Shown: positions 36,057-45,049 of the stretch, in pieces
How the letters are laid out: each line of letters begins with the position of its first letter
How positions within the stretch are numbered: the first letter of the stretch is position 1
Source of the DNA: Deltaproteobacteria bacterium
Lineage (GTDB): Bacteria > Myxococcota_C > UBA6777
Length of the DNA stretch: 64,000 nucleotides
Direction of reading: 5' to 3'
NCBI GenBank assembly: GCA_002731275.1
Contig: PCBK01000030.1
Span: forward strand, 98,609-162,608
Notes under the pieces: generated by a model
Told to the model about the DNA's origin: nothing
Seen by the model: the letters and a program-made list of their open reading frames with translations, nothing else
Database searches by the model: none
Position numbers and translations under genes: made by a program

Positions 36057-38402
36057 TCACCATCGACCTTCGAGCAAAAGTCTCGCGTTCTGACCTGGTG
36101 ATGGGACATACGACGCGTAGCGTCTATAACGCTCTCCCAATACATTGTCGATCGACGCGATGATGTGAAGATGCTTGACGAGCACGACATCTCCCCGCAA
36201 CGAGATCGTCACCCAGCTGGCGACATTGGCCAGCGCCTTTGAACGTGCAGAGAGCGAAGACGGCATCACCTGCGCAACCATCGCGTCGGCAAACTGGACA
36301 CGTACTTCGATCCCCGCAAGCTCACCAAACGAATATCGCGTCGTCGCACCAAACAGAAGAGGCGGACCTGTCGGCCAAAAAGCAGGCGTCTTGGGCAGCG
36401 TAGCGTCCAGCACATGCTGCCACGCGACGTCGAACTTGATCGACCATCCCATCCAAACATTCCACCACAAAGTCGCCTCTGTACCGAACATATTGGCTTC
36501 CGATATGTTTTCATACTGCATGACATCGCGGCCTTCGAAGGTCTCACTTCCCTCCCGCGTAGAAGATACCAACGAGATGAGTTGTTGCCACTGTTGCAGA
36601 TACACACGCGCGGAGAGCCGCAGGTTTTTCCATCGAAAAAAGCGCAGCTGCAGCTCCAGAGAGCGACTGTTCTCGGCCTGTAGTTCGGGCTGTGGGAGGA
36701 TATACATCAAACCACGTTGTCGCCCTCCAGATCGTTCTCTCAACGAAGGTGAACGCATACCGTAAGCGTACATCAAGCGAAGCTCACCAAGATCACGCAT
36801 GTGGACACGAAACCCGATCATAGAGGATGGTTCCCAATGTGCCCACGATTGCCTTTGACGCTCGACTTGTATCTCACCAAAGTGGCCTTGGACACGGGTC
36901 GCCGCCTCAATAAAGACCTTATTCTTTCCGTTGAGCAAACGAGCGTGTCCTCGCAAAAACGCGGCACCGATCTTCCGTTCGGCGTCCTGCCAAAAAGCGC
37001 TCGGGACATAACGATCTTCACCTTGCGAGAGGAGCGTCTCAGCGCCCCACCACTCACCTTTGCCTTCGACACCGTACACAAGGCGTAAAAAGGACCACGG
37101 CTTTGTCTCAAGGTGCAAAGAAACATGAGCGATTTGTCCGGGATACACGATGTGATGTTGCCCTTGAAGGGCACGTGTTCCTGGCGCAAGGTGGCGGATG
37201 TCTTCTTCTTCTTCTCGGCGCTGGTATGAAAAAAGGAGTCTCGCCTGCGTGCGCAAAGCTGGGAGCCCGAAAGAGAGCTTGAGGTAAGAGAAGTGATGAC
37301 GCCGCGCAAACTGCATCAGCTCCGCCTGTGTCAGATACAGATCATTTCGTCGCACATCGAGCAGTTGTGTGTATTGGTACAACGCCCTGACGTGAACGTC
37401 TCGCGCAATGCGCCAGTGTAATTTCGCGCTCGCGTGGAGGGTTTGATAACCACTCTCAGAAAGTGCCAGTCCGTCTTCGCCACCGATCCGCACGTTTTGT
37501 GCGAGCCGTGCCCCACCTGACAAGACGACGCCAATGTCTGGACCGGCAAAAGAGAGCCACGCATACCCCGAAGGCGCTTGATCCGCGCTCTCATACCCAC
37601 CTGCGATCTCTCCCTTCGAGATGAACGCTCCCTTCTTGGCAAACACAGGTCCACGTGTCTTGAGAGACAACGCCCCTGCCAGTCCATGCTCACCAAACAA
37701 AGAAGAGACTGGGCCACGAAACACCTCCACCGAACGCAATGTCTGACCTGGAAAGGCCCGAAGATGGGACAACCCATAGGGTCCATCCCACCCACTAAGA
37801 TAGGGAACACCATCCAGTCGAAGCGCGATCCGGCTGCCCCCTCCTCCTCTGATCATGGGTGATGTATCGGATGGATGGACTTGTTGGAAGAACCCTCCAG
37901 CCCACTCACTCACCCATTCGCCGATCGACAACATCCGCAACAGCCTCAGTCGCTCCTCCGAAAGGTAAGAAGAGGACCAAAGCTCGCCCTCTCCGTCAAA
38001 ACGTACATCATCCAACGCCCCCTCACGTTGATCCAACAACACCGCCACACCAACCCCAACACGCCACGAGGGGGTCGATGGTGCCCACCATTTTCGCGGC
38101 TTCTTGTGAGCCTGCGATGCCGCACGATGTTTGCGTTTAGCACCTGATTTTGAAGATGAAACACGCTTTTTCAGAGCACCCCGATGCATCTTTTTTGTGG
38201 ACGTAGGACGCGATGTGACACGATGATGTGCTTTGCTTTGGTGTGTAGTGGAAACTTCAGCGTGTGCAAAAGAGATGGTCATCAAGATCACACATACACA
38301 ACTGATACGATCCACCACATCGAACAAACATTTCAGTCTTTTTTTCAAATGATCCCTACAAACAGTCACAGTGAAGAGTGAAAGAAGTCTTTGTTTTGTC
38401 AT
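36057..38402 (-). CDS. TonB-dependent outer-membrane receptor
   Basis: 781 residues. A signal peptide (ISCVCVILMTISFAHA) ends at about residue 48. A basic Lys/Arg/Ser-rich stretch of about 55 residues precedes the plug domain, which is unusual. The plug shows IRGGGGSRIALRLDGVPYL and VEVFRGPVSSLFGEHGLAGALSLKT. The C-terminal barrel has alternating aromatic strands, with DNVLGERYRRYASYV before the closing strand ending QNARLLLEGRW. It is an energised importer for a siderophore, cobalamin or another large nutrient; the ligand is not determinable. It is divergent from the tandem reverse-transcriptase gene 152 bases away. Confidence 0.92.
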   Translation of the reverse strand: MTKQRLLSLFTVTVCRDHLKKRLKCLFDVVDRISCVCVILMTISFAHAEVSTTHQSKAHHRVTSRPTSTKKMHRGALKKRVSSSKSGAKRKHRAASQAHKKPRKWWAPSTPSWRVGVGVAVLLDQREGALDDVRFDGEGELWSSSYLSEERLRLLRMLSIGEWVSEWAGGFFQQVHPSDTSPMIRGGGGSRIALRLDGVPYLSGWDGPYGLSHLRAFPGQTLRSVEVFRGPVSSLFGEHGLAGALSLKTRGPVFAKKGAFISKGEIAGGYESADQAPSGYAWLSFAGPDIGVVLSGGARLAQNVRIGGEDGLALSESGYQTLHASAKLHWRIARDVHVRALYQYTQLLDVRRNDLYLTQAELMQFARRHHFSYLKLSFGLPALRTQARLLFSYQRREEEEDIRHLAPGTRALQGQHHIVYPGQIAHVSLHLETKPWSFLRLVYGVEGKGEWWGAETLLSQGEDRYVPSAFWQDAERKIGAAFLRGHARLLNGKNKVFIEAATRVQGHFGEIQVERQRQSWAHWEPSSMIGFRVHMRDLGELRLMYAYGMRSPSLRERSGGRQRGLMYILPQPELQAENSRSLELQLRFFRWKNLRLSARVYLQQWQQLISLVSSTREGSETFEGRDVMQYENISEANMFGTEATLWWNVWMGWSIKFDVAWQHVLDATLPKTPAFWPTGPPLLFGATTRYSFGELAGIEVRVQFADAMVAQVMPSSLSARSKALANVASWVTISLRGDVVLVKHLHIIASIDNVLGERYRRYASYVPSPGQNARLLLEGRW

Positions 38403-38419
38403 ACGTTACGAGAAATGGA

Positions 38420-38526
38420 AAGAGAGTTGCTTGTCGGCCCTCTCTTATGGTAAGGTAAGAGGATACTACCTACCGCACCAAGGCGACAATGGAAAAAACG
38501 GATTGCTAAAGCTTTTCAATGCTTTA
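38420..38526 (+). ncRNA. Candidate structured RNA upstream of the tandem reverse transcriptase
   Basis: Three consecutive potential hairpins lie between the divergent receptor start and the RT start. Hairpin 1 pairs 38420-38426 (AAGAGAG) with 38440-38446. Hairpin 2 pairs GGT (38449-38451) plus AGGTA (38453-38457) with TACCT (38467-38471) plus ACC (38472-38474), with one bulged A. Hairpin 3 pairs TAAAGC (38507-38512) with GCTTTA (38521-38526). Retron RTs use an RNA encoded just upstream as template and primer, so position and structure fit, but the stems are short, no flanking a1/a2 repeat is evident, and conservation is untested. Confidence 0.35.
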
Positions 38527-38554
38527 TACCAAATAGAAACAGAGCGAGGTTGCG

Positions 38555-40708
38555 ATGAGTGACAACTCAACAGTCCGCAAAAGAAATACATCTCACCTGA
38601 CGATACGCAAACGAAGTCCGCTAAGCAGCTATTCAGACTCAGCTTATCGCATCCTATCTCAATGGCTAGATGTCGACACGAGCCTCTTGTACGAAGTGCT
38701 CGAAGCGCTCAAAGCAGGCGAGGCCTACTACACCTACAAGATCCCCAAGCACGGCACCTACGAGTGGCGTGAAATCAATGATCCATACGGTGGTCTGAAA
38801 GAGATCCAGCGCCGAATCCTCGATCGTCTCTTGTACACAGTGCCCGTCTCCAACGCCGCACATGGTGCTGTACAAGCTCGCTCCGTTGTCACCAACGCAC
38901 TTGAGCACCTCCCCGATGCCAAAGAGGTCCTCTCACTCGACATCCGAAACGCGTTCCCCTCTGTACGATTTAGTCGAGTCCACCGTATTTTTCGCAAGTA
39001 CATCAAACCGATCTTGCGCAAACACGGACCACTCCCATCACCCAACACAGGTGGCAACCCCCCTCTCGACGAAGCCATCCACCTGCTCGCTGCGTTGACG
39101 ACATACCCACGCAGTATCAAGCAAAAGGGACAGACCCAAAAAGTGTGGTGCCTCCCACAGGGTGCACCAACCTCCGGTTATCTGCTCAACCTCGCTTGTC
39201 GCGCACTCGATCGCAAGATCTTCAAGATCTTCGACAAACATCCCAACCTGAACCTCCGATATTCACGTTACCTCGATGACATGACCATCTCATCATCCGT
39301 CGAGCTGCCTGCGGACGTTCAAAGAGAACTTGAGCTTGCGGTCAAAAAGAACGACTTCCGACTCAACAGAGACAAAACCAAAAAATACGGCCCAACTGAC
39401 ACACCTGTGATCTGTGGTGTCATGCTCCGCCAAGGACACGTCGAGGCCGAACCTGAGCTGATCCAACGTTGTAACGATCTGCTCAAGCGCTCCGTCCACG
39501 TCGATGATCCCCGCGTTGAGCTACAAAACAGACGAAAAATTCGCGGGATCCTCTCCTTCTTTAAGATGGTATACGGCGACCAAATGCCCACGGAGATCTC
39601 CGAGCCCTACAGCGAATACCGCTCGGCACGTAATCTTCCCCCCGAGCCATCGATCCCCGCGCCTGCACACCCGACCGTCTCCGCACGGGCTGTCGAACAC
39701 CAGAGCGCCATGTCACTGCTCGCCCAATGGCTCGACATCAGCATGGATACGCTCAACACTGCGCACCAAAAATCCCTCTCTGAAGACGGCTATGAACACT
39801 GGAGCATCGACAAAAAGAACGGAAGCAAACGACAGATCTGCTCTCCCTGCCTTGAAGTCAAAGACATCCAAGATAAGCTCCTCTCGCGCTTGCTCTACCA
39901 CATCCCTGTCTCCGTTGCAGCGCACGGCTTTGTGCCTGGCCGCTCGATCGTGACCAACGCGCTCGCACATGCCAACGCACGTTACCTGCTCAACCTCGAC
40001 CTGAAAGATGCCTTCCCATCTGTCAGCAGAAAGCGCGTCGAGCACTGTCTCAACGTTGGACTTGGTGGATTGATCAAGCGCTTTGGTCTGCGCTGCCCCA
40101 CGGCACTTCGCCAAGACGTCATCGGATTGATCGCGGACTTTGTGACCTATAAAGATGCGCTCCCACAAGGCGCTCCCACATCAGGTTACTTGCTCAACCT
40201 CGCCTGTCACACACAAGACAAACGCATCTTTGAGCTGCTCGAACGCACCGCCCCCAATGTCACATACACACGCTATGCAGATGACCTGACCTTTACCTCG
40301 ACAGAACCCCTTCCAGAGGGATTCCTCGAAGCGATCCAAAATGAGATCAACCGCTCAGGTTTCCGCTGGCACCCACAAAAAACACACTTCGCCGCTGTAC
40401 ACAAAGGCCAAAATATGGAGATCTGTGGTCTCCGCCTCGACGGCAGCACTTTGCGTATCCCACGCAAAAAACTCAAGCACTACAGAAGTGTTCTGCGACG
40501 AGCTACCAACAAGCTCGAAACAGGTGGACTTGATACTGAGACACGCCACAAAATTCAGGGGATCGTCGGATTTGTCCAGATGGTCTACGGTGAATTGCCA
40601 CGTTCGCTGTCCCAGCCTTACGCGGCCTTCTTGCAAAAACACCCCGAAGCCCGTCCTACAGGCTCGGCACACGAGAAGATCTCCTTCTACCCCAACATCC
40701 AGACCTGA
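38555..40708 (+). CDS. Tandem double-domain retron-like reverse transcriptase
   Basis: 717 residues holding two complete RT domains of about 340 residues each. Domain 1 (about 30-350): NALEH at 114-118, catalytic D129 (SLDIRNAFPSV), LPQGAPTSG at 200-208, active site YLDD at 239-242, ICG at 286-288. Domain 2 (about 385-695): GFVPGRSIVTNALAH with NALAH at 468-472, D482 (NLDLKDAFPSV), LPQGAPTSG at 536-544, YADD at 574-577, ICG at 623-625. Each has its own N-terminal QWLD segment and C-terminal MVYG segment, so the whole unit was duplicated. NAxxH is a retron-RT hallmark; the retron VTG motif is ICG here. Both sites keep all three Asp. Weak GCGAGG ribosome site. No effector gene is adjacent. Confidence 0.9.
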   Translation: MSDNSTVRKRNTSHLTIRKRSPLSSYSDSAYRILSQWLDVDTSLLYEVLEALKAGEAYYTYKIPKHGTYEWREINDPYGGLKEIQRRILDRLLYTVPVSNAAHGAVQARSVVTNALEHLPDAKEVLSLDIRNAFPSVRFSRVHRIFRKYIKPILRKHGPLPSPNTGGNPPLDEAIHLLAALTTYPRSIKQKGQTQKVWCLPQGAPTSGYLLNLACRALDRKIFKIFDKHPNLNLRYSRYLDDMTISSSVELPADVQRELELAVKKNDFRLNRDKTKKYGPTDTPVICGVMLRQGHVEAEPELIQRCNDLLKRSVHVDDPRVELQNRRKIRGILSFFKMVYGDQMPTEISEPYSEYRSARNLPPEPSIPAPAHPTVSARAVEHQSAMSLLAQWLDISMDTLNTAHQKSLSEDGYEHWSIDKKNGSKRQICSPCLEVKDIQDKLLSRLLYHIPVSVAAHGFVPGRSIVTNALAHANARYLLNLDLKDAFPSVSRKRVEHCLNVGLGGLIKRFGLRCPTALRQDVIGLIADFVTYKDALPQGAPTSGYLLNLACHTQDKRIFELLERTAPNVTYTRYADDLTFTSTEPLPEGFLEAIQNEINRSGFRWHPQKTHFAAVHKGQNMEICGLRLDGSTLRIPRKKLKHYRSVLRRATNKLETGGLDTETRHKIQGIVGFVQMVYGELPRSLSQPYAAFLQKHPEARPTGSAHEKISFYPNIQT

Positions 40709-40755: not shown

Positions 40756-42363
40756 TCACTTCTTCACAATATTGTATGCCTTGAGCAGCGCCCCTGTTTT
40801 CTCCAACAAGGACGCGTGTACCTTTTGATAATCGACCCAATTCTTCACGATGGTGAGCTGCGCCGTCGCGAGATCTTGTTGGTATTGAAGGACCGCAAAC
40901 AACGTGCTCTTGTCGGCCTTGAGCTTCTCGCGCTCCGCGACGAGTTTCTTCTTGGCCCACACAACAGAGGCTTTGGAGATCGGCATTCGCAACTTCGCGC
41001 GACGTAAATTGCGGTAGAGTTGTTGGACCTCAAGCGCCACCTTTCTGCGCAAGATCATGATCTGCATTTGGGCGCGTCGAATCTCGATCTGCTCGCGGAT
41101 TAGACGGTTCTTTGCGGTGCGATTGTCCAAAGGCACCTTGAAAGTGATCCCCACCTGGAAGGAGTTGGAGCGAGGATCGAACATCGTTCCAAATGATCGA
41201 CCGATCGGATCGACATTCGTCGTCTGATCACTGGATTTACGACCGAAACCGACGAAGGTAAAGCCCGCTTGTAGATTCAACTCCGGAAGCGTTGCATTTT
41301 TGGAGGAGACGACCCCGAGCTGTGCGACCTTCAGCGCGTGCATTGCGGAGACAATATCGGGATGTCGCTTCATCGAAGCTCTCATCAAAGCCGTCAATGT
41401 CGCCGATGTTCTCATTTGTTCGGGTGATTCAGTTGGGATCAGCGTGACAGTGACGGGGAGATGAAGCAAGATCCGCAGCTGCGTCTCTGCCTGCTCGATA
41501 AGATCTTGGGCGATGAGCACTTCGGCTTCTCGGGCAGCGAGCACCTGTTTAATTTGGTATTTCTCGATGGCAGCGCGCTTTCCAGCCTTAATCAGCGCGA
41601 GTGTCGAGATCAACTCCTTCTTGGCGAGCGCGAGCGCGCTCCTTTTGATCGCGATGTTCTGTCGGGCATACACGAGGTCCCAATAGTAGCTGATCGCTTG
41701 CAAGACGAGTTGGCTGGTGAGGCGCTTGACCTGTTGGTGGGCCATCGAAACCCGCTCTTGTGCCTGTCGGATCGCCGCGAGATTGGTCTCAAACCACGCC
41801 CCCTTCAGTAGCGGCTGTACGACCTGAAAGAGCAGCGTGTTGGAGGCATTTTGCACATCAATCAACGGGTCTTGCGACCCCTGTAAGGCCTTTGCAAAGT
41901 CGAGCTGATCTTGTTGTCGCCACCAAGAGCGATAATTCATCGAGACAATTGTCCCAGTCTCAAAGCGCTTTGAGAGCAACAATGAACCATCGACACGTAA
42001 CGTTTGAAAGTCGAGATCACCGACCGCGCTGAGCAAACTGGGGTTTACCTGCATATCCGCCGGGAGATTGGAGCGATCCAACGACAAACCGAGCTCTAAA
42101 TCAAAGGCAAACGCACCTCGCGCCGCGTTGACATCTGCGTGAGCCTGTTCGATGGTCAGCCGCTCTCGCAACAGAGATGGGTTTCTTTGAAGCAACATCC
42201 TCAACATCTGCGTAGAGGATATACGTCTGGTCTCTGCCTGTGCCTGTTGTGGACACAAGAAGGCGACAAACACAGACGCCCAAAAGGCGGCTAACAGGCA
42301 GTAAAAGCGTGCGTGCAAGTGAGAGGTGGACAGGGCACGAAATTCCCAATAGGCGACGGTCAA
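40756..42363 (-). CDS. TolC-family outer-membrane efflux protein
   Basis: 535 residues from a TTG at 42363, chosen because AGGAGGAG lies six bases upstream; the frame continues eight codons further, through the ribosome site itself. A signal peptide (FYCLLAAFWASVFVAFLCPQQAQA) leads into two repeated TolC halves with long coiled-coil helices (SLLRERLTIEQAHADVNAARG; QVLAAREAEVLIAQDLIEQAETQLRI-type; later EIRRAQMQIM). Strand segments (LELGLSLDRSN, LNLQAGFTFVG, QVGITFKVPL) complete the barrel. It is an outer-membrane exit duct. No inner-membrane pump or adaptor gene lies nearby, so its partner is elsewhere. It converges with the RT gene. Confidence 0.9.
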   Translation of the reverse strand: MTVAYWEFRALSTSHLHARFYCLLAAFWASVFVAFLCPQQAQAETRRISSTQMLRMLLQRNPSLLRERLTIEQAHADVNAARGAFAFDLELGLSLDRSNLPADMQVNPSLLSAVGDLDFQTLRVDGSLLLSKRFETGTIVSMNYRSWWRQQDQLDFAKALQGSQDPLIDVQNASNTLLFQVVQPLLKGAWFETNLAAIRQAQERVSMAHQQVKRLTSQLVLQAISYYWDLVYARQNIAIKRSALALAKKELISTLALIKAGKRAAIEKYQIKQVLAAREAEVLIAQDLIEQAETQLRILLHLPVTVTLIPTESPEQMRTSATLTALMRASMKRHPDIVSAMHALKVAQLGVVSSKNATLPELNLQAGFTFVGFGRKSSDQTTNVDPIGRSFGTMFDPRSNSFQVGITFKVPLDNRTAKNRLIREQIEIRRAQMQIMILRRKVALEVQQLYRNLRRAKLRMPISKASVVWAKKKLVAEREKLKADKSTLFAVLQYQQDLATAQLTIVKNWVDYQKVHASLLEKTGALLKAYNIVKK

Positions 42364-42648
42364 AGGTTTCTCCTCCTGATTCGGCAATCTTTTTTCGCGA
42401 GATCACTTTCCATCTTCGAGCTGTATACATATGTTGCGGAGTATGTTGCGCAGTCAAGGCCGATAGAAGGTTTCATCCAAGGGCCTTAGGTAACAATGGC
42501 CTTCACACGGGCATGGTAGCCACTGACATAGACGAGCACAAGAAGAGCTTGGGGATAGACGCACACAATGACACCTGTTATGATGGCGCGCCCTCGGTCA
42601 AAAGGCGCACTTTTAGACAGTCACAATTCTCTGAAAAAGGACAGCTTG

Positions 42649-43674
42649 ATGAGCCAATTACAACAACGCAAAGACGATCACCTGCGCATCTGCCTTGAAG
42701 AAGAGGTAGGCTCGGACATCTCCACAGGCCTCGGCGGATACCGCCTCGAATACGACGCCTTGCCCGAGATCGATCTGGTAGACGTCGATCTGCGCGTTGA
42801 GCTCCTCGGTCGCTCATTGCAAGCGCCTATCTTGATCGGTTCGATGACTGGTGGTAGCGAACGTGCAGGTGAGATGAACAAGCGCATCGCCCGAGCAGCC
42901 GCCAAAGTCGGTCTGGGTATGGCACTGGGCTCACAACGCGCAATGATCCCACACCCGGAGCTACGAGAGACGTATGCGGTCCGCGATGCAGCCCCTGATC
43001 TTCCTCTGCTCATCGGCAACATTGGTGCAGTCCAGCTCCGCCACGGGCTCGGACACAAAGAGTTGGCATCGCTCGTCAATGATGTCCAGGCTGACGCTCT
43101 CTACTTTCACCTCAACCCCCTCCAAGAAGCGATCCAACCAGAAGGTGATACGGAATTTCGTGGGCTCAAAGCCATGATGGCCGAATACGTCGAAGCGCTC
43201 CCATTTCCCTGTCTCGCAAAAGAAGTAGGCGCCGGGATCTCCGAAAAAACGGCCAAAAAACTAGCGGGCATCCCCTTCGCAGGGATCGAAGCCTCAGGTG
43301 TTGGTGGCACCTCATGGGCCCGTGTCGAAGGATATCGCGCTCCCTCCCAGAGTGTCTCCGCACAGCTCGGCGAACGGCTTCGTGGCTTTGGTACACCCAC
43401 AGCCCACTCCATCCAACACTGTCGTCAACACTTCTCCGAGCGTTGCGTGATCGGCTCTGGTGGTATCCGGACAGGGCTCGACATCGCCGTAGCCATTGCT
43501 CTTGGTGCCGATGCTGTCGCGATCGCACGTCCTGTCCTTGAAGCCGCACACCAATCAGAAGAAGCGTGCGAGCAATACCTCACAAACCTCCTTCACGAAC
43601 TGCGCGTGATCTGCTTCTGTACAGGCGCCGCAAACATCCAAGAACTTCGAAACGTCCGTCTGCTCACACACTAA
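42649..43674 (+). CDS. fni: Isopentenyl-diphosphate delta-isomerase, type 2 (FMN-dependent)
   Basis: 341 residues from the ATG at 42649, with AAAAAGGA seven bases upstream; a frame-open extension of 27 residues upstream is discarded. The TIM-barrel signatures are intact: QRKDDHLRICL, APILIGSMTGGSERAGEMN, GLGMALGSQRAMI, GNIGAVQL, LYFHLNPLQEAIQPEGDTEF, CLAKEVGAGIS, GIEASGVGGTSWARVE and VIGSGGIRTGLDIAVAIALGADAVAIARP. The enzyme interconverts IPP and DMAPP using reduced FMN, Mg2+ and NADPH. HMG-CoA reductase lies 76 bases downstream, so both serve isoprenoid synthesis by the mevalonate route. Confidence 0.96.
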   Translation: MSQLQQRKDDHLRICLEEEVGSDISTGLGGYRLEYDALPEIDLVDVDLRVELLGRSLQAPILIGSMTGGSERAGEMNKRIARAAAKVGLGMALGSQRAMIPHPELRETYAVRDAAPDLPLLIGNIGAVQLRHGLGHKELASLVNDVQADALYFHLNPLQEAIQPEGDTEFRGLKAMMAEYVEALPFPCLAKEVGAGISEKTAKKLAGIPFAGIEASGVGGTSWARVEGYRAPSQSVSAQLGERLRGFGTPTAHSIQHCRQHFSERCVIGSGGIRTGLDIAVAIALGADAVAIARPVLEAAHQSEEACEQYLTNLLHELRVICFCTGAANIQELRNVRLLTH

Positions 43675-43750
43675 GTTTCCAGCCACAGACATAGGGTGTC
43701 TTCCAGACCGCTGCAAAAAAGCCCACTCCATCTTGAAAAGGTTTTGTACG

Positions 43751-45049
43751 ATGAACAGCGAATTTCCCGGTTTTTACAAGCTCTCCATCGAGGAGAGACG
43801 CAACGTATTACTCAAGCGCGCAGAGATCTCCGAGGCTTCTCAAAGAGCCCTCCAAGGAGAGGACACACTCACCACACAAAAAGCCGACAAGATGGTCGAA
43901 AATGTGCTCGGTATGTTCCGCCTCCCCCTCGGTCTGTGTACCTACCTCAAGGTCAATGACAAAGATTACGCTGTCCCCATGACCATCGAAGAGCCCTCTG
44001 TCGTTGCAGCTGCGTCCAACGCCTGTAAACTTCTTCGTGCCGGAGGTGGAATCACTGCGAGCGCAACAGCCCCCATCATGATCGGTCAGATCCAGTTGTC
44101 AGACATCCCGGATATGGACGCAGCCATCGCATCCATCGAAGGTGCCAAAGAAGCTCTCCTCACAAAAGCCCGCAGTTTTTGTGAGCGCCTTGTCAAACGA
44201 GGTGGTGGACCACAAGACATCGAATGTCGTCAGCTCCCCCCTCTCAACGAGAATGATCCCCTCGGCCCCATGCTCATCGTTCATATCATGATCGATGTCC
44301 GCGATGCGATGGGCGCCAACCTCGTCAACACGATCTGTGAAGGTGTCGCCCCCACCCTCGCCACACTCAGCAAAGGCCGAGCACGTCTGCGTATTCTCAG
44401 CAACCTCACCGATCAACGTCTCGTCACTGTGAAAGGGCGCATCCCCTTTCACGCATTCTGTAAGGGTGACCAACCACTCTCTTTTGGAGAAGAGACCGCC
44501 AAAGGGATCGAAGAAGCATCAGTCTTCGCAGAGCGCGATCCATACCGCGCCGCGACACACAACAAAGGCATCATGAACGGCATCGACGCTGTCCTCATGG
44601 CCACAGGACAAGATTACCGCGCCGTCGAAGCAGGTGTCCACGCATATGCATCGAGAGACGGACGTTACACCGCGCTCTCCCAATGGCGTGTCAAAGAAGA
44701 TGGCCTCCACGGCGAGATGACCATTCCACTCGCCGTCGGGACTGTTGGTGGAATCACACGCGTTCACCCTAAAGTTCGCGCAGCTCTTGAGCTGCTCGAC
44801 ATCGAACGCGCACATGAGCTCGCACAAGTCGCAGCTGCCGTTGGATTGGCACAGAACGTCGCCGCGCTTCGCGCCCTCGCCATGGAAGGTATCCAACGAG
44901 GACATATGCGACTCCATGCTCGAAACCTCGCCGCTGAAGTGGGGGCCACAGACGAACAAATCCCCATCGTTGCACAAAGAATGTTCGAACAAAAGACCAT
45001 CAATCGCGACGCTGCCGCAAGTATCCTCGCACAACTCACACAAGACTGA
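43751..45049 (+). CDS. mvaA: Hydroxymethylglutaryl-CoA reductase, class II
   Basis: 432 residues; the ATG at 43751 has AAAAGG nine bases upstream (an in-frame TTG lies six codons earlier). Class II signatures: ENVLGMFRLPLGLC, the catalytic Glu in MTIEEPSVVAAAS, the DAMGANLVNT Asp segment, AATHNKGIMNGIDAV, the VGTVGG motif and the near-terminal HMRLHARNLA His. Class II enzymes reversibly convert HMG-CoA to mevalonate. Together with the type 2 isomerase this supports mevalonate-based isoprenoid synthesis, as known in myxobacteria. A GC-rich hairpin begins at its stop codon. Confidence 0.96.
   Translation: MNSEFPGFYKLSIEERRNVLLKRAEISEASQRALQGEDTLTTQKADKMVENVLGMFRLPLGLCTYLKVNDKDYAVPMTIEEPSVVAAASNACKLLRAGGGITASATAPIMIGQIQLSDIPDMDAAIASIEGAKEALLTKARSFCERLVKRGGGPQDIECRQLPPLNENDPLGPMLIVHIMIDVRDAMGANLVNTICEGVAPTLATLSKGRARLRILSNLTDQRLVTVKGRIPFHAFCKGDQPLSFGEETAKGIEEASVFAERDPYRAATHNKGIMNGIDAVLMATGQDYRAVEAGVHAYASRDGRYTALSQWRVKEDGLHGEMTIPLAVGTVGGITRVHPKVRAALELLDIERAHELAQVAAAVGLAQNVAALRALAMEGIQRGHMRLHARNLAAEVGATDEQIPIVAQRMFEQKTINRDAAASILAQLTQD

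Follow-up and report, generated by a model that had tools for sequence, protein, structure and literature searches.

A vertically inherited bacterial protein with two retron-type reverse transcriptase domains in a single chain

We report a protein of 717 aa that contains two full retron-type reverse transcriptase (RT) domains. It is encoded by one uninterrupted open reading frame (38555-40708, + strand) in a 64,000-nucleotide stretch of contig PCBK01000030.1 of a Deltaproteobacteria bacterium, referred to here as the window. Retron-type RTs, as described so far, have a single domain and work with a noncoding RNA (ncRNA), and many retrons are patchy in distribution and tied to effectors. In the double RT both active sites are intact and differ from each other, the gene is conserved, a split form exists in a distant genome, and no adjacent ncRNA or effector was detectable. 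These features suggest a paired DNA-making enzyme that serves a core function and differs from the typical retron, which defends against viruses.

RESULTS

Two complete RT domains in one open reading frame

The protein begins with a conserved tail (aa 1-27; 38555-38635) that is mostly disordered in the structural model and in which R8, R10, N11, HLTI at 14-17, P22, and S25-Y26-S27 are invariant. The N-terminal (N-type) RT domain follows (aa 28-360; 38636-39634) and carries NALEH (N114-H118), the motif-A residue D129, LPQGAPTSG (200-208), the catalytic box YLDD (239-242; 39269-39280), ICG (286-288), and a thumb. After a linker of low model confidence (aa 361-382; 39635-39700), the same order recurs in the C-terminal (C-type) RT domain (aa 383-700; 39701-40654), with NALAH (N468-H472), D482, LPQGAPTSG (536-544), YADD (574-577; 40274-40285), ICG (623-625), and a thumb. 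A conserved C-terminal tail (aa 701-717, RP...EK...YPNI; 40655-40705), also of low model confidence, completes the chain. All of these features lie on the + strand. The two halves align over their whole length with 33% identity.

The motif positions are those given in the original prediction, which had read this motif set in both halves and had held that all catalytic residues are kept twice. The latter was borne out by comparison of five orthologues from independent assemblies, in which all six catalytic Asp residues are invariant. NAxxH (region X), the motif-A Asp, LPQGAPTSGY, and YxDD were present in both halves of every orthologue. The region Y triplet was ICG or VCG in both halves of all five, and the VTG that serves as a retron criterion was therefore absent. 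VTG is present in 14 of the validated retron RTs (PMC6868368), and VTG or ITG was the region Y triplet in most of the single RTs that we sampled.

The presence of two complete retron-like domains, also claimed by the original prediction, was confirmed with Pfam, whose RVT_1 model matched the protein twice. When each half was searched separately against RT profiles, both were of the retron type. The NCBIfam St85 retron model matched the N half with an E value of 1.5e-40 and the C half with 3.5e-56, and the best PADLOC models were RT_III-A for the N half and RT_XIII for the C half (219 bits). Far weaker scores were obtained with group_II_RT_mat (28-78 bits, cut-off 300) and with the Drt3a profile (22-47 bits, cut-off 200), and Drt3b was not among the matches listed.

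The full-length AlphaFold2 model (mean pLDDT 85.5, pTM 0.74) shows the order of RT elements twice. Its best matches among solved structures were retron RTs, with the Eco2 RT first (Z 26, rmsd 3.4 over 279 residues); this comparison spans mainly residues 378-711, that is, chiefly the C half, and the evidence for the fold of the N half therefore comes from its sequence and the full-length model. Folding of the isolated N half without an alignment produced a poor model (pLDDT 38.7), which was set aside. By profile, tree, and fold, both halves sit among the retron RTs.

A vertically inherited gene under purifying selection

Each of the five genomes in the phylum-level group of the window (G000, the genome of the window, to G004) contains a full-length gene, with 57-61% identity and no internal stops; these genomes, which are independent assemblies, represent one family and three genera. 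An assembly, frameshift, or joining artefact was rejected, given the same stop-free layout in five independent assemblies. The long single RT open reading frames (690-909 aa) of Myxococcota-like genomes were considered as further doubles and rejected, each having one RT domain.

The phyla of G032, G333, G472, and G518 yielded no full-length double in 195, 343, 68, and 386 genomes, respectively, and neither did about 380 diverse genomes; in all, about 1,400 genomes outside the group of the window were covered. This sample is a draw and not exhaustive, and the scan of the whole collection relied on peptide patterns of the N half, which distant doubles would escape. Plasmids, phages, and viral contigs likewise contained no full-length double, and their protein matches were single-domain only. 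The gene had no match in a search of plasmid DNA, and the N-type profile had none among viral contigs. A mobile or phage origin was rejected on these grounds. An HMM scan of 178 RT-bearing open reading frames from the collected loci found two RT domains only in the five doubles.

The gene is flanked in the window by a divergent TonB-dependent receptor (36057-38402, - strand) and a convergent TolC-family outer membrane protein (40756-42387, - strand). Neighbours were shared wherever contigs allowed the comparison: G002 and G004 have the same two GTPases upstream, the divergent TonB receptor, and the convergent TolC, and G004 additionally keeps an IPP isomerase and an HMG-CoA reductase. TolC is retained at the G003 locus, and the G001 contig ends too near the RT for comparison. 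In the window itself, a type 2 IPP isomerase adjoins a degradative-type HMG-CoA reductase (42568-45049); these are mevalonate-pathway genes of the lineage.

Identity between orthologues was 60% for the RT, 61% for the essential, adjacent GTPases, and 62% for HMG-CoA reductase, well above that of TolC (39-45%) and the TonB receptor (about 30%). Between G002 and G004, dN/dS was 0.088 for the N half and 0.073 for the C half. These values support strong and equal purifying selection on both halves and imply that both are needed. The double RT is thus an ordinary chromosomal gene of the whole lineage, inherited vertically.

The two active sites differ consistently

The N-type catalytic box was Y[L/I]DD in six of six sequences, that is, the five N halves (YLDD in three; YIDD in G002 and G004) and the RT1 protein of the split pair described below. 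By contrast, all C halves and RT2 of that pair have YADD, as do 90 of 92 other single retron-type RTs. The set of 92 was gathered by profile and not by the YADD pattern; the viral RTs of an earlier motif comparison had partly been gathered by that pattern and were a biased set. G2L4 RT takes part in microhomology end joining as a dimer (PMC12337344; PMC13015716), and having I where YADD has A shifts it towards strand annealing and away from primer extension (PMC12337344). The suggestion in the original prediction of an intramolecular heterodimer or a division of labour gains evidence from this fixed difference between the halves.

No retron cassette was detected at the double RT

The region upstream of the gene is a 152-bp intergenic segment (38403-38554) without conserved or unusually stable RNA. 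Alignment revealed no conservation of the upstream sequence across orthologues, and the flanks showed no unusual RNA structure (z -1.8 to +1.4). As a control, nine Mx162-type retrons of myxobacterial genomes gave z values of -8 to -13 in the same folding test; the sensitivity of the test is incomplete, with three retrons of known types (L002, L012, and L172) not standing out. No Rfam msr model matched at the double RT, and Rfam did detect the msr of an Ec78-type retron used as a control. The element GCGCAGTC, found upstream of related single RTs (see below), was absent from the intergenic flank. A copy at 42448 in G000 was considered as an element of the double RT and rejected; it lies near TolC, is not shared, and was taken as chance.

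No effector or accessory gene was found beside the double RT, whose neighbours are the TonB receptor, TolC, IPP isomerase, and HMG-CoA reductase, and no partner gene was kept there beyond unrelated membrane proteins. Type XIII retrons are present elsewhere in G000 (L002 and L003) and in G003 (L012), each with a SWIM_XIII neighbour. Since true type XIII retrons occur in the same genome, the double RT is an addition to ordinary retrons. G000 also encodes a further RT of the retron type, 521 aa in length and with an extensive N-terminal part (L004, contig C164), and an overlapping downstream open reading frame resembles, by eye, a protein of the formylglycine-generating-enzyme type.

A split pair and a sister family of single RTs

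A wider search identified nine genomes with far closer relatives, scoring 301-347 bits versus at most 183 for other single RTs. Eight of them carry a single RT (L212-L219), about 400 aa in length, whose N-terminal part weakly matches a zinc ribbon. In the ninth, a distant genome of another phylum-level group (G643), RT1 and RT2 are encoded by two genes that overlap by ATGA (L220; contig C1089, 1494-3508, - strand), and the boundary between these genes coincides with the linker of the double RT. RT1 (331 aa) resembles the N halves in its YLDD and an HLPxAQ stretch, and RT2 (340 aa) the C halves in its YADD and ICG. Motif B of RT1 is altered to LPMGSPSS, which may weaken catalysis.

The doubles, the split pair, and the zinc-ribbon singles formed one clade within the retron-type RTs with support of 100/100 after removal of long-branch rows; this clade is new. 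A single RT of a viral contig (L138, IMGVR_UViG_3300016457_000282), with PTSG and an MVY thumb end, was basal to it on a very long branch. In the tree without long-branch rows, RT1 and the N halves formed one group (97/93) and RT2 and the C halves another (94/78). An earlier tree without the close relatives had joined the two halves (100/99), and a recent duplication within the lineage was read from it; this reading was given up when the sister clade came to light.

On the best tree, the occurrence of N-type and C-type RTs as separate, overlapping genes indicates that the gene in the window arose by fusion of an earlier RT pair, whose members had already been selected together as separate proteins. 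Most likely, an old RT gene pair fused later in the lineage of the window, an order that rests on support values, shared residues, and a one-residue indel, with the AU test leaving alternatives standing: neither a clade uniting the N and C halves (p 0.25) nor a sister relation of RT1 and RT2 (p 0.16) was rejected. The head-to-tail duplication of the original prediction holds in that the halves are paralogous, and is too simple in that the two types predate the fusion. Of its counter-case, homologues split into two genes with a sequencing error joining them here, the split homologues do occur once; the fused layout is nonetheless no error, because five independent assemblies share it.

The zinc-ribbon RTs, which form a new RT family, keep VTG and are accompanied by a conserved upstream RNA, also denoted GCGCAGUC RNA. 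A GCGCAGTC-like element lies upstream of the RT in all eight loci (as the variant GCGCAATC in L219), with a terminator-like hairpin within about 100 nt after it in most. Structure was evident in their upstream regions (best z of each locus -2.9 to -6.4, seven tested), as in that of the split pair (z -4.6). In five of the eight loci pnp follows downstream of the RT in the same orientation, in three of them with rpsO between the two genes, and five of six genomes of the class of this family carry the RT. None of the five double RTs is near pnp.

DISCUSSION

Comparison with known systems

We found no bacterial protein with two RT domains of this kind in the literature searched or in profile libraries, in agreement with the original prediction, which tentatively held the layout to be undescribed. 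The double RT shares its fold, NAxxH, motif order, and thumb with retron RTs (St85, Ec67, Ec86, and type XIII families), but has two RT domains per chain, ICG/VCG for VTG, and PTSGY for PTSPx, and is a vertical core gene for which neither msr-msd nor effector was found. Among named profiles, that of type XIII comes nearest to the C half; true members, however, score 533-605 bits and stand beside SWIM_XIII, a partner that the double RT lacks. Compared with the zinc-ribbon family and the split pair, it has in common the PxSG motif and the MVYxxxP thumb end; the former differ in their single RT, N-terminal zinc ribbon, VTG, upstream RNA element, and partly rpsO-pnp setting, and the latter in consisting of two separate genes.

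Two comparisons concern systems of other RT families, of which DRT3 comes closest in concept. In DRT3, two different RTs, Drt3a and Drt3b, cooperate to make double-stranded DNA (PMC13174585). The resemblance, which concerns only how the system works, lies in two distinct RT sites acting as one system and, for the split form, in adjacent genes; DRT3 differs in its RT families (UG3 and UG8), separate proteins, ncRNA, and hexamer. G2L4 RT is likewise a chromosomal, domesticated RT with a bulky YxDD residue and two RT units together (PMC12337344; PMC13015716), but it is group II-like and an unfused homodimer of identical subunits with one gene per subunit.

A proposed function and its rivals

Our preferred reading, to which we assign a probability of roughly 0.35, is that the double RT is a stand-alone, vertically inherited, two-site enzyme derived from a fused RT pair, a built-in heterodimer for host DNA synthesis rather than for msDNA. 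An ancestral adjacent pair of retron-related RTs would have fused into one chain with two active sites, whose halves would act together as an asymmetric heterodimer. The C half (YADD) would be the main DNA-extending site, and the N half, with its bulky residue (YLDD/YIDD), would hold or anneal strands and extend more slowly. The product would probably be host DNA synthesis such as the joining or filling of DNA ends, as for the YIDD homodimer G2L4 RT, and the enzyme would not make retron msDNA that guards an effector. The broader statement, that a co-selected and then fused pair became an asymmetric two-site RT for conserved host DNA synthesis with neither ncRNA template nor effector, seems to us slightly more probable, though still short of even odds.

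We infer the heterodimer geometry, the division of labour, and the role in DNA repair by analogy; the division of labour is proposed mainly because of the Y[L/I]DD/YADD difference and the likeness to G2L4 RT. That likeness crosses families because G2L4 RT is group II-like, and three of the five orthologues have L rather than I. A search for Ku in the five genomes of the group was negative, which fits this reading but is weak evidence. That the gene is neither patchy nor effector-tied, together with the position of sister RTs upstream of rpsO-pnp, was counted in favour of a host function.

The strongest competitor, which we consider rather unlikely, is that the protein is a retron after all, one half making msDNA from a distant or unrecognisable ncRNA and the other serving as effector or regulator. 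Both halves are nested in the retron-type RTs and retain NAxxH. Among their sister singles, VTG and the upstream GCGCAGTC element with its terminator are present, and the split pair has structured sequence upstream; the double RT may therefore have an ncRNA too, in trans or undetected. Vertical inheritance alone is compatible with a retron, since the Mx162 retrons of myxobacteria are also vertically inherited (PMC6868368). It is the locus itself that argues the other way: ICG/VCG replaces VTG in both halves of all five orthologues, only 152 bp separate the divergent genes in the window, and this flank has neither an Rfam msr match, a stable or conserved fold, nor GCGCAGTC, with no known effector beside it.

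Distinctly less probable is a one-protein analogue of DRT3, in which the two sites would make complementary strands, one RNA-templated and the other protein-templated or copying the first, to yield double-stranded DNA for defence. DRT3 provides the precedent (PMC13174585), and the two active sites differ and exist as adjacent genes in the split pair; however, the halves are unrelated to Drt3a/Drt3b by profile, no ncRNA was found, and a vertical core distribution in five of five genomes is unlike that of defence islands. We give marginally less credence still to a housekeeping RT tied to RNA metabolism, for example one that copies or marks structured or decaying RNA. The association of the sister family with pnp, which encodes PNPase, and its presence in most genomes of its class are consistent with such a role, but the double RT is near pnp in none of its genomes, and neighbourhood is indirect evidence.

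Dual-RT biology has so far involved two separate proteins, as in DRT3 (PMC13174585), whereas the double RT is one chain. If the preferred reading is correct, a retron-derived RT has been recruited for a core function, and the protein would offer a heterodimer fused by nature, in which simple point mutants could tell the role of YADD from that of Y[L/I]DD. The zinc-ribbon singles, the split pair, and the fused doubles would then represent an evolutionary series from single to pair to fusion.
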